Positions 21,309 to 39,072 of a stretch of DNA of 64,000 nt are shown piece by piece; the first letter of the stretch is position 1; each line of letters opens with the position of its first letter. Made by a program: the position numbers and the translations under genes. Under the pieces are notes generated by a model. It ran no database searches. It saw only the letters and a program-made list of their open reading frames with translations, and was not told the DNA's origin. Origin of the DNA: Flavisolibacter nicotianae (GTDB taxonomy: Bacteria > Bacteroidota > Bacteroidia > Chitinophagales > Chitinophagaceae); the NCBI RefSeq assembly GCF_003628535.1, contig NZ_RBCI01000003.1, positions 372,001 to 436,000 of the forward strand, given 5' to 3'.

Positions 21309-21612
21309 GCACAGACCCTTGCTTTTGCACGATACTTCAAGCCTTCATCATTTTTGATGGAGGCTTTTTGCTGCCGTTTGGCGTCCTCGTCAACGGCTTT
21401 TCTTTGCCCCGGAGGGGCATCCTGTTAATAGAAAACGAATCGTAAGTAGAACAAAGCTCCGAAGGAGCGATATATTTTTTATGGTGCCAGCAACAGAATA
21501 GCCATGAAGCTTCCGTTGCACAGCTTATCCTGACGAAGGATGGGCTCTGTTCAACGTTTGGAACATAGGGCGGCAAAAAAGAATTCCATCCCTTCAAGGG
21601 ATGGAATTCTTC
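21309..21612 (+). repeat. Long dispersed element, copy A
   Basis: One of three similar stretches (others at 29849-30080 and 38779-39072), all in the plus orientation. Shared blocks in order: CAGACCCTTGCTTTTGCACG; a hairpin AAGCCTTCATCA...TGATGGAGGCTTTTT (21339-21369) that looks like a Rho-independent terminator; TTTGCTGCCGTTTGGCGTC; CCCCGGAGGGGCATCCTGTT; AAAGCTCCGAAGGAGCGATA; GTGCCAGCAACAGAAT; and a final ATCCCTTCAAGGGAT hairpin (about 21590-21610). The flanks (21256-21308, 21613-21690) hold CCTCCCC/GGGGAGG-type sequence and no gene. Frames read through it differ between copies, so it is noncoding. It probably also terminates the citrate synthase transcript. Confidence 0.8.
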
Positions 21613-29786: not shown

Positions 29787-29848
29787 GTGGCCTCCCCAAA
29801 CCCCTGCAGGGAAAGGCCCCCTCGATCCCCCAAGGGGGAAGTGGCCCG

Positions 29849-30080
29849 GCACAGACAATTGCTTTTGCACGATACTTCAAAGCCTTCGTCAGTCATGCTG
29901 GTGGAGGCTTTTTGCTGCCGTTTGGCGTCTCCGCCGACGGCTTTTCTTTTGCCCCGAAGGGGCATCCTGTTTATAGAAGAGTGAACAAAGCTCCGACGGA
30001 GCGGAATATTTTTTTGGTGCCAGCAACAGAATATCGATGAAGCTCCCGTTGCGTCGCACTCTTCAGCGTTGGGGAATTCT
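29849..30080 (+). repeat. Long dispersed element, copy B
   Basis: Same block order as copy A: CAGACAATTGCTTTTGCACG; hairpin AAGCCTTCGTCA...TGGTGGAGGCTTTTT; TTTGCTGCCGTTTGGCGTC; CCCCGAAGGGGCATCCTGTT; AAAGCTCCGACGGAGCGGA; GTGCCAGCAACAGAAT. The final ATCCCTTCAAGGGAT hairpin of A and C is missing here. Compensating changes in the GCTCCGACGGAGC palindrome (A has GCTCCGAAGGAGC) hint that the hairpin itself is selected. The rest of the gap, 30081-30257, holds no gene that I can support and a near-match promoter box (TATTTTAG, 30215-30222). Confidence 0.8.
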
Positions 30081-30257: not shown

Positions 30258-31115
30258 ATGCTTCAACGCTCCACGATTCAATTGCTGCGCTTTCATTTTT
30301 CGCTCTTCCTGTTGCCCGTTTATCTATTCGCCTTAAGCCAGGCGCCGGTCATCAATGCCTTCAACGCGGTTCTTTCATTTTGCATACTCCACCTGCTGGT
30401 TTATCCTTCCAGCAATGGCTACAATTCCTATATGGACAGGGATGAAACGCCCATCGGCGGACTCGCTTCGCCCCTCCAGCCAACGAAACAGTTGTTTTAT
30501 GTTTCCGTTTCGATGGATGTTTTTGCGGTTGTGTTGTCGTTGCTGGTCTCACCGGTCTTTGCAGCGGGTGTATTGCTTTACATTCTTGCCTCCAGAGCCT
30601 ATAGTTACCGCGGCATCCGCTTGAAAAAATACCCGCTGACCGGCTTTCTCACCGTCTTTGTTTTCCAGGGTGCGCTCATTTTTTTGCTGACCTACCATGC
30701 GGTGACAGGATTGACAATCTCGCAGGTACCGCTGCTGCCGCTTTTTTTAGCCAGTTTGCTTATTGGCGCTTTGTATCCGCTGACGCAGGTCTACCAGCAT
30801 GAGGAAGACCGGCGGGATGGTGTAACCACGATCAGTTATTTGCTGGGTAAAAGAGGGACGTTCGTGTTCAGTATGCTGCTGTTCCTCCTCGCTACAGTTG
30901 GGATGTACCGGCTTTTTACGCTGCAGGACAAGCCCAACTTTTTTTGGCTTTACGTGTTCTGTCTTCTGCCTGTGGTCCTATTTTTTCTGTATTGGATGGG
31001 CAGGGTTTGGCGGGATGAAAAGGCGGCAGATTTCAAAAACAGCTTACGCATGAATCTTCTCTCTACTCTTTGCACCACGGCATTTTTCGCGACCCTAATT
31101 GTCCTTAACCATTGA
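30258..31115 (+). CDS. UbiA-family membrane prenyltransferase
   Basis: 285 residues from the ATG at 30258; a TTG 48 bases upstream keeps the frame but adds no conserved sequence. About eight to nine transmembrane helices. The first Asp-rich motif is NSYMDRDE (56-63) followed by TPIGGL; the second is YQHEEDRRDG (179-188) followed by a conserved LGKRGTF. These bind the magnesium-diphosphate of an isoprenyl donor in UbiA enzymes. It is the first gene of a tight four-gene operon, overlapping the polyketide synthase start by 4 bases. The inferred job is prenylation of the aromatic or pyrone product made by the next enzyme. The first motif is shorter than the canonical NDxxDxxxD, so a divergent subfamily. 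Confidence 0.85.
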   Translation: MLQRSTIQLLRFHFSLFLLPVYLFALSQAPVINAFNAVLSFCILHLLVYPSSNGYNSYMDRDETPIGGLASPLQPTKQLFYVSVSMDVFAVVLSLLVSPVFAAGVLLYILASRAYSYRGIRLKKYPLTGFLTVFVFQGALIFLLTYHAVTGLTISQVPLLPLFLASLLIGALYPLTQVYQHEEDRRDGVTTISYLLGKRGTFVFSMLLFLLATVGMYRLFTLQDKPNFFWLYVFCLLPVVLFFLYWMGRVWRDEKAADFKNSLRMNLLSTLCTTAFFATLIVLNH

Positions 31116-32191
31116 GTAAAATTATTTCCATAGGAACGGCCGTGCCGGCACATTGTCACCGGCAGGCGGACATTCTTTCCTTCATGCAGCATGTATTTGC
31201 ACTGAACGAAAAGGAGGCCCGAAAACTGCGTTTCCTTTACAGCCAATCGGGCATTGCGCAGCGCTTTTCTGTTTTGCCGGATTATTCGCGGCCACTACCG
31301 GAATGGAAATTTTATTCCCCAACCGAAAGCCTGGAACCTTTTCCCTCGCTGGAGCAACGCATGGCCGTTTACCATAAGCAGGCGCCACTGCTTTCCGTCG
31401 ATGCCATCCGGGATTGCCTGTCGCACCTTCATCACCACAAAAACATCACCCACCTCATTACGGTAAGCTGTACCGGCATGAGCGCACCCGGGCTTGACCT
31501 GCAGGTAATGGAGCTGATGGATTTTGAAAAAACAATTTTTCGCACCTCGGTCAATTTCATGGGTTGCTATGCTGCCATCCATGCATTGAAGTTGGCCGAT
31601 GCGATTTGCAAAAGCGATCAGGAGGCTCAGGTACTGATTGTGTGCACAGAGCTCTGCACGCTGCATTTTCAACGGGAACCAACAACGGATAACATGGTAT
31701 CGTCTATGCTGTTTGGCGACGGTGCGGCTGCAGCTCTTGTACTGCCCGATACGGCTGCCGAACACGGGCTGACGATTGATTCTTTTTACAGCGAGATCAA
31801 TCCGAAAGGCCGTCGCGACATGGCATGGGAGCTCTCGTCTTCCGGGTTCTTGATGACCCTGAGCGGGTATGTGCCTGAGCTGATCGAAGAAGATTTTGCC
31901 GCCATTGCCCGGCGGGCACTGGCAAAAACCGGTTTGGGTGTTGCAGACGTTTCGCACTGGTGCATCCATCCTGGCGGCCGCCGCATCCTGCAGGCCATTC
32001 ACAAAAGCCTATCCTTCACCAACGGGCAGTTGCAAGGCTCGTACGACGTGCTGAACGAAGTGGGAAACCTTTCGTCGGCCACGATCTTGTTCGTGCTGAA
32101 AAGGATGCTTCATCAAAAGAAAATTCCTAACCTGTTTGGTGCGGCATTTGGCCCGGGGCTGACCGTCGAAACCTTTACCGCCCACGCTTAA
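31112..32191 (+). CDS. Type III polyketide synthase (chalcone/stilbene synthase fold)
   Basis: 359 residues. The catalytic triad is Cys152 in NFMGCYAAIHAL, His286 in IHPGGRRIL and Asn319 in NEVGNLSSAT, equivalent to the Cys-His-Asn triad of chalcone synthase. SCTGMSAPGLDLQ (119-131) and FGDGAAAAL are further thiolase-fold markers. It starts with TTG inside the TTGA overlap with the UbiA stop codon, implying translational coupling. Such enzymes extend an acyl-CoA starter with malonyl-CoA and cyclise to resorcinols or pyrones; starter length cannot be told here. The neighbours suggest that the product is then methylated, hydroxylated and perhaps prenylated. Confidence 0.93.
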   Translation: MSKIISIGTAVPAHCHRQADILSFMQHVFALNEKEARKLRFLYSQSGIAQRFSVLPDYSRPLPEWKFYSPTESLEPFPSLEQRMAVYHKQAPLLSVDAIRDCLSHLHHHKNITHLITVSCTGMSAPGLDLQVMELMDFEKTIFRTSVNFMGCYAAIHALKLADAICKSDQEAQVLIVCTELCTLHFQREPTTDNMVSSMLFGDGAAAALVLPDTAAEHGLTIDSFYSEINPKGRRDMAWELSSSGFLMTLSGYVPELIEEDFAAIARRALAKTGLGVADVSHWCIHPGGRRILQAIHKSLSFTNGQLQGSYDVLNEVGNLSSATILFVLKRMLHQKKIPNLFGAAFGPGLTVETFTAHA

Positions 32192-32276
32192 GGCATTCGG
32201 CAACGGGCAAAAGGAGAAGCGCATTTTGCTGTAAAAGAAATTAACTTGTCTGTTGCAACGAGTCAATTGCCAATTG

Positions 32277-33002
32277 ATGCCCATGCCATCGTTCAGGAAA
32301 AGAACCTACCAGAAAGAACTTCTCGACGGAGATGATATCTCGTTTGCCGATATCAGGCGGAACATGCAGGAGCTGGACTTCATTAACCGCAGGCTGGGCG
32401 GTCACGACATTACACTCGACGGTATTGTAGCACTGATCAAGGACAATGCAATTTTCAACAAGCGGCTGCGCATCGTTGAAATTGGTTGCGGGGGTGGCGA
32501 TAACCTTCGTGCCATCAAGGAATGGGCGACGCACATCAAGTTGCCGGTGGCATTGACAGGCATTGATTATAACGCAGAATGCATCGCGTTTGCACAGGAG
32601 CAAAAGCGCAACGAAGGAATCCTGTTTATTCATTCCGATTACCGGTTGGTGAAACTGGCACCACGACCGGATATTGTTTTTTCTTCTCTGTTCTGCCATC
32701 ACTTTACCGACGAGGAGTTGGTGCAGCAACTCAAATGGATGGCAGGCAACAGCGAAGTCGGGTTTTTTATCAATGACCTTCACCGGCACCCGCTGGCGTA
32801 TTATTCCATCAGGTTTCTGACGGCCTTGTTCTCGAAAAGTTACCTGGTGAGGAATGATGCACCGCTTTCCGTGCGCAGGGGATTCAGCCGGAAGGACTGG
32901 GAACGTATTTTTTCTGCTGCACAAATTTCAGGCTATCGCTGTCAATGGCGATGGGCCTTCCGTTGGTTGTTAACCTGCGAATCCCATGGAGCATTTTCCT
33001 GA
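32277..33002 (+). CDS. SAM-dependent methyltransferase of the polyketide operon
   Basis: 241 residues from the ATG at 32277; another ATG two codons on and a TTG eight codons up are alternatives. The SAM motif is RIVEIGCGGGDNL (about 64-76), with the acidic strand-2 end in TGIDYNAECIAFA and a post-motif VFSSLFCHHFTDEEL. The C-terminal region has a hydrophobic, basic stretch (LAYYSIRFLTALFSKSYLV) as in methyltransferases acting on lipophilic quinone or polyketide substrates. It overlaps the next gene by 17 bases. Inferred to O- or C-methylate the polyketide product, as SrsB does in the Streptomyces srsABC phenolic-lipid pathway. Confidence 0.85.
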   Translation: MPMPSFRKRTYQKELLDGDDISFADIRRNMQELDFINRRLGGHDITLDGIVALIKDNAIFNKRLRIVEIGCGGGDNLRAIKEWATHIKLPVALTGIDYNAECIAFAQEQKRNEGILFIHSDYRLVKLAPRPDIVFSSLFCHHFTDEELVQQLKWMAGNSEVGFFINDLHRHPLAYYSIRFLTALFSKSYLVRNDAPLSVRRGFSRKDWERIFSAAQISGYRCQWRWAFRWLLTCESHGAFS

Positions 33003-34122
33003 ATACGATGTTGCAATTATCGGTGGCGGCCTCGCAGGCCTGGCCGCTGCAATCCTCCTGCGCAGGAAGGGCCATAGCGTTGTGTTGCTCGAAAAGGAAA
33101 CCTACCCGTTTCATAAAGTTTGCGGTGAGTACATTAGTTGGGAAAGCCGCGATTTTTTGCAGTCTCTTGGCCTGCCGTTGCAGGAGTGGAATCTACCTAC
33201 CATCGACATACTAAAGCTAACGGCTGCAAGCGGCCGCGTATTCACCACCCGGTTGCCCCTGGGAGGGTTTGGCGTCAGCCGTTACCGTTTGGATAGTGCC
33301 CTGGCAGATCTTGCTGAAAGAGAAGGCGTGCACCTGTTGCAAAATACAAAAGCGGACGGCTTTGAGCAGGGCGAACGATTCACGGTTTCGTTCCGTCAGC
33401 ATAAGATCAATGCACGGCTTTGCCTGGCAGCCTATGGAAAGCGCAGCAATCTCGATGTGAAATGGAACCGTCCCTTTTTACAGCAACAAAACAAGCGATT
33501 GAACAACTTCGTGGGCATTAAGTATCACGTTCAAACTTCATGGCCATCCAATGTCATCGGACTCCACAATTTTGAAAATGGTTATTGCGGTATTTCCAAA
33601 ATCGAAAACGATACTTATTGCCTATGTTACATGACAAGGGCCGAAAACCTGAAACAGAACGGCAATAACATCGAAGCGATGCAGCAAAAGGTCCTGTACC
33701 AAAATCCGCATCTGAAGAAAATTTTTGAATCCAGTGCTGTTGTGCGGGGTTTCCCCGTTTCCATTTCTCAGATCAGTTTTGCGCAAAAATCAACGGTGGA
33801 AAATGGCGTGCTGATGCTGGGCGACACAGCCGGCATGATCACGCCGCTTTGCGGCAACGGAATGAGCATAGCACTGCATACGGCAAAGATTGCAACCACT
33901 CTCGGCGACGCATTTTTGCAGCAGCAGCTCTCCCGTACCGAACTGGAGAAAAACTACACGAAGGCGTGGGACGTGCAATTTGCCCGGCGGCTTCAGGCCG
34001 GGCGGCTGCTGCAGCGCTTTTTTGGCAGCAACAGGCTAAGCAATGGGTTTGTTCATGCCTTCCGGCTTGCACCGTTTTTGGCCGCCCCTGTTATCCGCCT
34101 GACACACGGCAAACCGTTTTAA
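32986..34122 (+). CDS. FAD-dependent monooxygenase/oxidoreductase (geranylgeranyl-reductase-like)
   Basis: 378 residues. N-terminal FAD motif VAIIGGGLAGLAAAILL (Gly13, Gly15, Gly18; Glu36 at the ribose) and second FAD motif LMLGDTAGMITPLCGNGMS with Asp280. KVCGEYISWES near residue 45 is typical of the geranylgeranyl-reductase / aromatic-hydroxylase group. Its start lies inside the methyltransferase gene (17-base overlap), so it is the fourth gene of the operon. By analogy with SrsC it may hydroxylate the resorcinol ring to a quinone; reduction of a prenyl chain is the alternative. No signal peptide. Confidence 0.87.
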   Translation: MEHFPEYDVAIIGGGLAGLAAAILLRRKGHSVVLLEKETYPFHKVCGEYISWESRDFLQSLGLPLQEWNLPTIDILKLTAASGRVFTTRLPLGGFGVSRYRLDSALADLAEREGVHLLQNTKADGFEQGERFTVSFRQHKINARLCLAAYGKRSNLDVKWNRPFLQQQNKRLNNFVGIKYHVQTSWPSNVIGLHNFENGYCGISKIENDTYCLCYMTRAENLKQNGNNIEAMQQKVLYQNPHLKKIFESSAVVRGFPVSISQISFAQKSTVENGVLMLGDTAGMITPLCGNGMSIALHTAKIATTLGDAFLQQQLSRTELEKNYTKAWDVQFARRLQAGRLLQRFFGSNRLSNGFVHAFRLAPFLAAPVIRLTHGKPF

Positions 34123-34151: not shown

Positions 34152-34517
34152 ATGGAAACAAAAAAAACATTGGTATTGGGGGCATCGGCAAATCCATCAA
34201 GATACAGTTACCTGGCGATGAACCGGCTGAAGGCAGGCAGGCACCCGGTGGTGGCCGTTGGCAGAAAGGATACGGAGGTGGCCGGTATTTCCATATCTAA
34301 AACACCTGTGGCGGAAGAAGGGGTAGACACCGTAACGCTTTACCTGAATCCAACGCACCAGCAGGAGTATTACGATTATATTCTCAGCCTGAATCCCAAA
34401 CGCATCATCTTTAACCCGGGTACGGAAAATCCCGAATTGATGAAGATGGCTGAAGAAAAGGGCATTGAGCCGGTCGTGGCCTGCACGCTGGTTATGCTGG
34501 CAACCGGCCAGTATTGA
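34152..34517 (+). CDS. CoA-binding domain protein (YccU-like)
   Basis: 121 residues. A compact Rossmann fold: KTLVLGASANPSRYSYLAMNRL at the N-terminus (split at GASANPSRYS), then VVAVGRKD, VDTVTLYLNP and KRIIFNPGTENPEL, and a C-terminal VVACTLVMLATGQY. The pattern is that of stand-alone CoA_binding_2 proteins; their role is unknown, though the same fold binds CoA in acyl-CoA ligases. It lies 29 bases after the flavoprotein, so it may belong to the polyketide operon, but a partial promoter box (TACTTTCA at 34136) could give its own transcript. A longer upstream frame (from 33849) is antisense-free but overlaps the flavoprotein and is rejected. Confidence 0.85.
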   Translation: METKKTLVLGASANPSRYSYLAMNRLKAGRHPVVAVGRKDTEVAGISISKTPVAEEGVDTVTLYLNPTHQQEYYDYILSLNPKRIIFNPGTENPELMKMAEEKGIEPVVACTLVMLATGQY

Positions 34518-38716: not shown

Positions 38717-38778
38717 AGGCCGTGCGATTACCCACCTCGCCCCGGCTATCGCGGCCTCCAAAGGAGGGAGTGGCATCC

Positions 38779-39072
38779 GCACAGACCCTTGCTTTTGCAC
38801 GATATAACGAAGCCTTCATCATACATTTTGATGGAGGCTTTTTGCTGCCGTTCGGCGTCCTCACCCACGGTTTTTTCTTTTGCCTCGGAGGGGCACCCTG
38901 TTAGTAGAAAGAAAGAACAATCGAGAGAATAAAGCTCTGTAGGAGCGATATGTTTTATGTCACCAGCGACAGAATTTCCATTGAGCTTCTGTTGCGACGC
39001 TCCATTCAGCGTTCGGAACGCAGCGGGGCAAAAAAGAGATGCCATCCCTTCAAGGGATGGCATCTCTCTCTA
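38779..39072 (+). repeat. Long dispersed element, copy C
   Basis: Blocks in the same order as copies A and B: CAGACCCTTGCTTTTGCACG; hairpin GAAGCCTTCATCA...TGATGGAGGCTTTTT; TTTGCTGCCGTTCGGCGTC; a diverged CCTCGGAGGGGCACCCTGTT; AAAGCTCTGTAGGAGCGATA; GTCACCAGCGACAGAAT; CAGCGTTCGGAACGCAGCGG; and the ATCCCTTCAAGGGAT hairpin extended to GATGCCATCCC...GGGATGGCATC. Its orientation is the same as A and B although both flanking genes here are on the minus strand, so it is not tied to gene direction. It fills the gap between engB and the GH18/GT2 gene; no gene is supported inside. Confidence 0.8.

Follow-up and report, generated by a model that had tools for sequence, protein, structure and literature searches.

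The closest described counterpart of the operon treated here is the agq cluster of Actinoplanes missouriensis, which produces alkyl-O-dihydrogeranyl-methoxyhydroquinones (Awakawa et al. 2011, doi 10.1002/cbic.201000628, cited in PMC10896814, PMC3227686, and PMC4044012). The type III polyketide synthase (PKS) AgqA is described as making alkylresorcinols, which are then prenylated and hydroxylated (PMC10896814), and a membrane enzyme similar to UbiA as O-prenylating the alkyl-methoxyhydroquinone (PMC3227686). A comparable set of genes is found at positions 30258 to 34122 on the forward strand of the window, which is a stretch of 64,000 nucleotides from the 6.1 Mb genome of Flavisolibacter nicotianae, a member of the Bacteroidota. 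The set encodes a UbiA-superfamily membrane prenyltransferase, a type III PKS, an S-adenosylmethionine (SAM)-dependent methyltransferase (MT), and an oxidoreductase dependent on flavin adenine dinucleotide (FAD), hereafter the flavoprotein. The agq cluster reportedly includes an MT gene as well, as is also implied by the name of its product, and on this description both clusters unite a PKS, an MT, a flavin oxidoreductase, and a UbiA-type prenyltransferase. As it is described, agq already combines such activities. The agq cluster differs in belonging to an actinobacterium, and the two are likened by their described gene kinds and product. What is new is the spread of the unit over seven sampled families of Bacteroidota, with all four genes in 24 of 26 genomes and only the MT absent from the other two, and a subfamily of UbiA in which the diphosphate motifs are altered throughout (106 of 106 sequences). 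On balance, the operon probably specifies a pathway devoted to a prenylated phenolic lipid, namely an alkylresorcinol-derived hydroquinone or quinone, with substrates and product predicted from the sequence.

Other described systems share parts of this set. The pkqABC operons of Mycobacterium smegmatis and Streptomyces MNU77 combine a PKS, an MT, and an oxidoreductase, and lead from an alkylresorcinol to an alkylbenzoquinone (PMC9927152). The order PKS, MT, oxidoreductase is common to pkq and to srs of Streptomyces griseus, and is present in the window and in 67 of the 80 named loci described below. The terms "prenyl" and "UbiA" are absent from the main text of PMC9927152, whereas here UbiA is co-inherited with the PKS. 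The hidABC (hierridin) operon and planctomycete type III PKS operons likewise join the PKS to an MT and an oxidoreductase (PMC8086630, PMC10896814), mostly in the order MT, oxidoreductase, PKS. One hierridin-like cluster, that of Raphidiopsis mediterranea, carries a prenyltransferase and is called unique in this respect (PMC8086630); what is exceptional there is the rule here. At the loseolamycin locus of Micromonospora endolithica, a UbiA-family prenyltransferase, a putative MT, and a type III PKS lie close together, but an acyl-CoA dehydrogenase, not a flavin oxidoreductase, stands between MT and PKS. The loseolamycins, obtained by heterologous expression of the PKS gene, are described as alkylresorcinols (PMC7587189). 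No described Bacteroidota product of such a cluster was found in the open-licence literature, in agreement with an earlier note made from the sequence of the window, and the accessible text of PMC9248904, PMC12350317, and PMC13211072 contained nothing on the cluster.

The four genes are tightly packed. The prenyltransferase gene comes first (30258-31115, ATG start, 285 amino acids; PF01040 with 79.9 bits at a cut-off of 34.2), and its stop is overlapped over four bases by the start of the PKS gene (31112-32191, TTG start, 359 amino acids; Chal_sti_synt_N/C with 99.3/73.3 bits). After a gap of 85 bases follows the MT gene (32277-33002, ATG start, 241 amino acids; Methyltransf_25 with 37.4 bits, and Methyltransf_11), which overlaps by 17 bases the gene of the flavoprotein, a predicted aromatic monooxygenase (32986-34122, ATG start, 378 amino acids; FAD_binding_3 with 49.8 bits). 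All of these Pfam scores exceed their cut-offs, and together with the open reading frames (ORFs) they confirm the genes, overlaps, and gap as the earlier note had given them. Among the matches listed, the nearest named relatives of the UbiA protein belong to Flavisolibacter longurius (77%) and a Flaviaesturariibacter metagenome-assembled genome (67%).

The arrangement is conserved. A profile search of named genomes with UbiA recovered at least 594 stretches, at least 577 of which encode relatives, and the best 80 were used as named loci. They were chosen by UbiA similarity (49-77% identity), and carry mostly Chitinophagaceae-type or unresolved Bacteroidota names. In all 80, the PKS gene directly follows UbiA on the same strand, with a gap of -1 to 139 bases by match ends. 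The MT is also present in 73, and all four genes occur in the order of the window in 67. A conserved order across relatives had been proposed as a check, with separation of the genes as the outcome that would speak against a functional unit, and no such separation was seen in the named loci. Nine of the 13 loci that fall short of the full set are at a contig end; the remaining four (L177, L181, L186, and L194) are not. No fifth gene is widely conserved, the next commonest neighbour family being found in 18 of 81 sets (the 80 named loci and the window), and the idea of extra conserved partner genes was dropped. In other families, the neighbours that were selected and scanned look unrelated, for example a helicase, a sensor kinase, Rho, a MATE transporter, and a mechanosensitive channel.

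Co-occurrence was followed in a wider sample of 395 genomes spread over the phylum; these genomes are related, and counts are not independent events. Type III PKS matches at E 0.001, weak ones included, were obtained in 206 of them, many without a UbiA of this kind. With UbiA, 26 genomes from seven sampled families exceed 165 bits, and these are identical to the 26 genomes with the best-scoring PKS. The UbiA cut is wide (169.0 versus 83.8 bits for the next genome, and 365-432 versus at most 163 bits by profile search). On the PKS side, the step from the 26th genome (286.8 bits) to the next (276.1 bits) is narrow and was recognised in hindsight; what is claimed is that the genomes with UbiA and the 26 highest-scoring PKS genomes are the same. 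UbiA and PKS genes are adjacent in 20 of the 26, eight times on the same strand (seven genomes of the window's family and G064) and 12 times divergently, and UbiA lies away from the PKS in the other six. Thus, their co-presence is independent of physical linkage. The flavoprotein is found in all 26 genomes, near the PKS in 21 and elsewhere in five, and the MT in 24, near the PKS in 23 and elsewhere in one. Two of the five flavoproteins located away from the PKS (G011 and G016) are on other contigs of draft genomes, the PKS contig of G011 being only 4.4 kb long, and in G166 the ORFs of PKS, MT, and flavoprotein were masked by longer antisense ORFs and counted after recovery. In 15 cluster-less genomes, 13 without a PKS match and two with weak ones (G012 and G037), no comparable flavoprotein (best 43.1 bits) or MT (best 30.9 bits) was detected; the same search in eight cluster genomes returned the flavoprotein in all eight (277-360 bits) and the MT in six (155-223 bits). 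Within the window's own family, seven of the 14 sampled genomes have both UbiA and PKS and seven have neither. Furthermore, pairwise distances of UbiA and of PKS among the 26 genomes are correlated, with a matrix r of 0.81 that none of 2000 permutations reached. In Bacteroidota, the four genes tend to be present or absent as a set.

Family f24 includes 45 genomes with a PKS match, and a more distant UbiA is present in 34 (full-length profile matches of 126-163 bits) and partially in G092. In the five loci read (L109-L112 and L114), this protein, with about 30% identity and the motifs N-x3-D-x-D and Q-x3-D, is unlinked to the PKS and has thioredoxin-like and aminotransferase genes as neighbours. 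It may or may not be part of the pathway.

For the PKS, the start codon nearest the aligned position in the 80 named loci is TTG in 69, ATG in eight, and GTG in three, a comparison biased towards that position because the aligned query itself starts with its TTG. In 56 of these loci, the start of the gene lies across the stop of UbiA. The TTG start looks real, and its recurrence together with the overlap suggests conserved translational coupling. For residue comparison, 117 PKS sequences were gathered and four of at most 300 amino acids were dropped. The catalytic triad Cys152/His286/Asn319, numbered correctly in the earlier note, is retained in all 113 remaining sequences, and at the sequence level a non-functional triad, which would have undermined its reading, is not observed. 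Trp239 (codon 31826-31828, forward strand) is found in 111, Met248 in 112, and Cys182 in 111 of them. The best PDB chain is that of Steely1 (2h84, E 1.8e-42). Trp239 is aligned with the residue of 2-pyrone synthase at what we take to be position Gly256 of chalcone synthase (CHS). By alignment and spacing it is presumably equivalent to Trp281 of ArsB, as in srs and pkq. ArsB Trp281 directs aldol (resorcinol) closure, and its exchange for Gly switches the product from resorcinol to pyrone, while ArsC has Gly284 and, in the cavity, Met293, and Cys205 of PKS18 is listed among the tunnel residues (PMC6274091). The nine-residue spacing from Trp239 to Met248 equals that between residues 284 and 293 of ArsC. 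Cys182 follows the catalytic Cys by 30 residues, the same offset as that of PKS18 Cys205 if the catalytic residue of the latter is Cys175, as we assume. Taken together, these correspondences would favour a starter with a long acyl chain and closure to a resorcinol.

The prenyltransferase is assigned to the UbiA superfamily by its Pfam score and its predicted fold. The model has a predicted local distance difference test (pLDDT) value of 95.4, and its best PDB matches are Archaeoglobus UbiA with dimethylallyl diphosphate (DMAPP)/Mg2+ and geranyl diphosphate (GPP)/Mg2+, at template modelling (TM) scores of 0.67-0.72; a PDB sequence search with the single protein gave no match. The canonical first motif of UbiA enzymes is NxxxDxxxD (PMC4044012). 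In the window, this segment reads N56-S-Y-M-D60-R-D62 (30423-30443, forward strand). The canonical second motif, DxxxD, is represented by Q180-x3-D184 (30795-30809, forward strand), with Gln in place of the first Asp. An alignment of 106 main-clade and five distant rows contains N-x3-D-x-D and Q-x3-D in every row (106 of 106 and five of five), and an Asp at the canonical third position of motif 1 (residue 64) in four of the 106 main-clade rows. In the profile alignment, Q180 stands opposite an Asp in each of the two solved archaeal UbiA proteins, and D184 opposite the second Asp. The protein represents a variant subfamily, and the description as an "Asp-motif UbiA" in the earlier note is right as to family, while the motifs are not those of the textbook. 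All 106 main rows share N56, D60, D62, Y115, R121, K123, and D184, so that a polar donor site appears to be kept.

A role of this UbiA in menaquinone or haem biosynthesis, which would likewise have told against the earlier interpretation, is rejected because NCBIfam scores are low and other paralogues fit better. The best menaquinone-type score (MenA/MqnP) is 36.1 of 346 bits, and no match to the haem O enzyme CyoE was obtained at E 0.001. By contrast, among the UbiA-family paralogues of the host genome, of which the matched parts were scanned, L049 passes CyoE (213.1 of 210.3 bits), L048 passes the UbiA-like family TIGR01475 (244.6 of 180.8 bits) while staying under the cut-off for MqnP (239.4 of 430 bits), and another passes that of EboC.

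In NCBIfam, the MT matches PRK06202 with 136.8 bits and UbiG with 22.9 bits, both under cut-off, as are the matches of the flavoprotein to the geranylgeranyl (GG)-reductase superfamily (103.6 bits) and QhpG (85.9 bits). An assignment of the flavoprotein to the geranylgeranyl reductase family was discarded, since the cut-off of TIGR02032 is 158.8 bits; a distant relationship remains. Its predicted model (pLDDT 86.0) matches the folds of flavin halogenases, which are nearest, monooxygenases, and a GG-reductase-like protein. Flavin halogenases carry the motif WxWxIP. A function as a halogenase was rejected in spite of the close fold, the flavoprotein having YCGISK where Bmp2 has WSWIIP. Judging by the model, a ring hydroxylase is likeliest, because a monooxygenase-like fold is shared and the WxWxIP stretch is absent, with a prenyl reductase as the alternative.

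In the proposed pathway, the PKS would extend a fatty-acyl starter with malonyl units and form a 5-alkylresorcinol by aldol condensation. Methylation, hydroxylation, and prenylation would follow in no assigned order. The MT would methylate an oxygen or a ring carbon, the flavoprotein would hydroxylate the ring to give a hydroquinone, oxidisable to a quinone, and the membrane-bound UbiA would attach an isoprenoid to an oxygen or a ring carbon, so that the product would stay in the membrane. There it may serve as a membrane lipid, a redox carrier, or an antioxidant.

Sets of PKS, MT, and FAD-dependent enzyme without this UbiA exist in and beyond the phylum, namely in f24 loci, Deinococcus radiodurans, and a Psychrobacter plasmid. 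This distribution suggests that one branch of an old phenolic-lipid pathway either acquired the UbiA step or retained it. On the plasmids of D. radiodurans (L205) and Psychrobacter urativorans (L204), a PKS and an MT are grouped with an FAD-oxidoreductase, followed in L205 by a glycosyltransferase. The flavoprotein of L204 matches that of the window at 25%, and an uncharacterised stretch of Novosphingobium (L206) does so at 32%.

Several observations weigh against the proposed prenylated phenolic lipid. In tblastn at E 0.001, the flavoproteins of the UbiA-less sets in L037 and L039 (both f24) and in L205 gave no match to that of the window, and the one in L037 is a far stronger FAD_binding_3 protein (177.8 versus 49.8 bits). 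Thus, a flavoprotein in such an operon position need not mean the same chemistry. The parallel with srsA-srsB-srsC drawn in the earlier note, which does not mention agq, holds for gene kinds, order, and the cyclisation Trp, but need not extend to the identity of the flavoprotein. The best scores of the window's flavoprotein point to the geranylgeranyl reductase superfamily, and its role might thus lie in prenyl chain reduction and not in ring hydroxylation. Genomes G190 and G371 have no MT match, and L177, L181, L186, and L194 have no flavoprotein, two of them also no MT, despite downstream sequence, so not every pathway step is universal. In addition, the UbiA motifs deviate from NxxxDxxxD and DxxxD in every row, and a prenyl diphosphate donor is therefore not certain. 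The prenylated or lipid-anchored polyketide quinone proposed earlier is partly supported, by the gene set, its conservation, and the resorcinol-type Trp; the support is partial because the product is a prediction and because of the flavoprotein mismatch in UbiA-less sets.

A further point against is that the best NCBIfam match of the PKS is DpgA, the 3,5-dihydroxyphenylacetyl-CoA synthase, which makes a small aromatic from malonyl-CoA. Such a PKS would work without a fatty starter, UbiA would add a long polyprenyl tail, and hydroxylation and methylation would yield a polyketide-headed analogue of ubiquinone. The set of UbiA, hydroxylase, and methyltransferase mirrors ubiquinone tailoring, and the weak matches of the MT to UbiG and of the flavoprotein to the UbiH family fit this scheme. 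Nevertheless, it is rather improbable, as the DpgA match is far under the cut-off (146.7 of 425 bits), by which DpgA itself was rejected, and Trp239, Met248, and Cys182 are in keeping with an alkylresorcinol synthase that has an acyl tunnel. The PKS might also lactonise its chain to a methylated pyrone lipid, given that ArsC and PKS18 make pyrones (PMC6274091) and that the residue rules for cyclisation are partial. We consider this very improbable in view of the near-invariant Trp239 and the effect of the ArsB exchange, and a ring hydroxylase and an aromatic prenyltransferase would be better suited to a phenol.

The uniform replacement of motif residues in main and distant rows also raises the idea that the UbiA clade transfers a group other than an allylic prenyl one or uses a different arrangement of metal ligands, and the model matches the membrane-bound PRTases 8j8k and 8j8j weakly (TM 0.51-0.54). 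This is decidedly improbable, since the structures closest to the model are those of UbiA homologues in the presence of DMAPP or GPP and Mg2+, and the seven residues of the polar donor site are unchanged. Finally, homologues of the flavoprotein (39-44%), MT (29-33%), and PKS (28-30%) are grouped in L043 (7703-12441, G084) and L044 (7746-12360, G138). In L043, FabA-like and ketoacyl synthase genes lie next to them, an arrangement like that of an aryl-polyene/flexirubin cluster, and these families recur in L044. An offshoot of such clusters, in which the operon would make the aromatic head of a pigment, is scarcely credible, as beyond the four genes no family commonly accompanies the UbiA operon and the PKS of L043 and L044 have neither Trp239 nor Cys182.

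Downstream of the operon lies a gene for a CoA-binding domain protein (34152-34517, forward strand, 121 amino acids; CoA_binding_2 with 87.9 bits), which had been thought a possible member. A homologue on the same strand is present in 16 of the 80 named loci, at a median of 4.3 kb after the UbiA start, and the gene was rejected as a core member; some close relatives have it nearby. In the window, where the longest ORF of this gene overlaps that of the flavoprotein, the copy falls outside the list of that family. Upstream, at a distance of about 250 bases, a dispersed intergenic repeat of about 170 bases is found at 29840-30010, with further copies at about 21309-21476 and 38769-38920. In the host genome, 40 matches were scored among 62 candidates, and 17 of them, the window copy included, span at least 150 of 171 bases; the other near-full copies show 75-84% identity.

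The prenylated phenolic lipid proposed here predicts a class of membrane lipids in a large phylum for which the open-licence literature gave no such compound, and names four genes for it. A more far-reaching version, which we regard as unlikely, is that a membrane lipoquinone of polyketide origin is widespread in Bacteroidota and serves next to menaquinone, either as an alternative carrier of electrons or as a redox buffer. Its ring would come from a type III PKS in place of chorismate; hydroxylation and methylation would follow, as would prenylation by a UbiA subfamily whose metal/diphosphate site has been rebuilt. Independently of the product, a UbiA clade with an invariant Gln for a motif Asp offers a natural test of the motif needs in prenyl transfer. 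In actinobacteria, quinones made by type III PKS enzymes are reported to act as alternative respiratory carriers (PMC9927152). A prenylated form conserved as a unit in Bacteroidota would therefore raise the question of whether polyketide quinones have a broader distribution than assumed.

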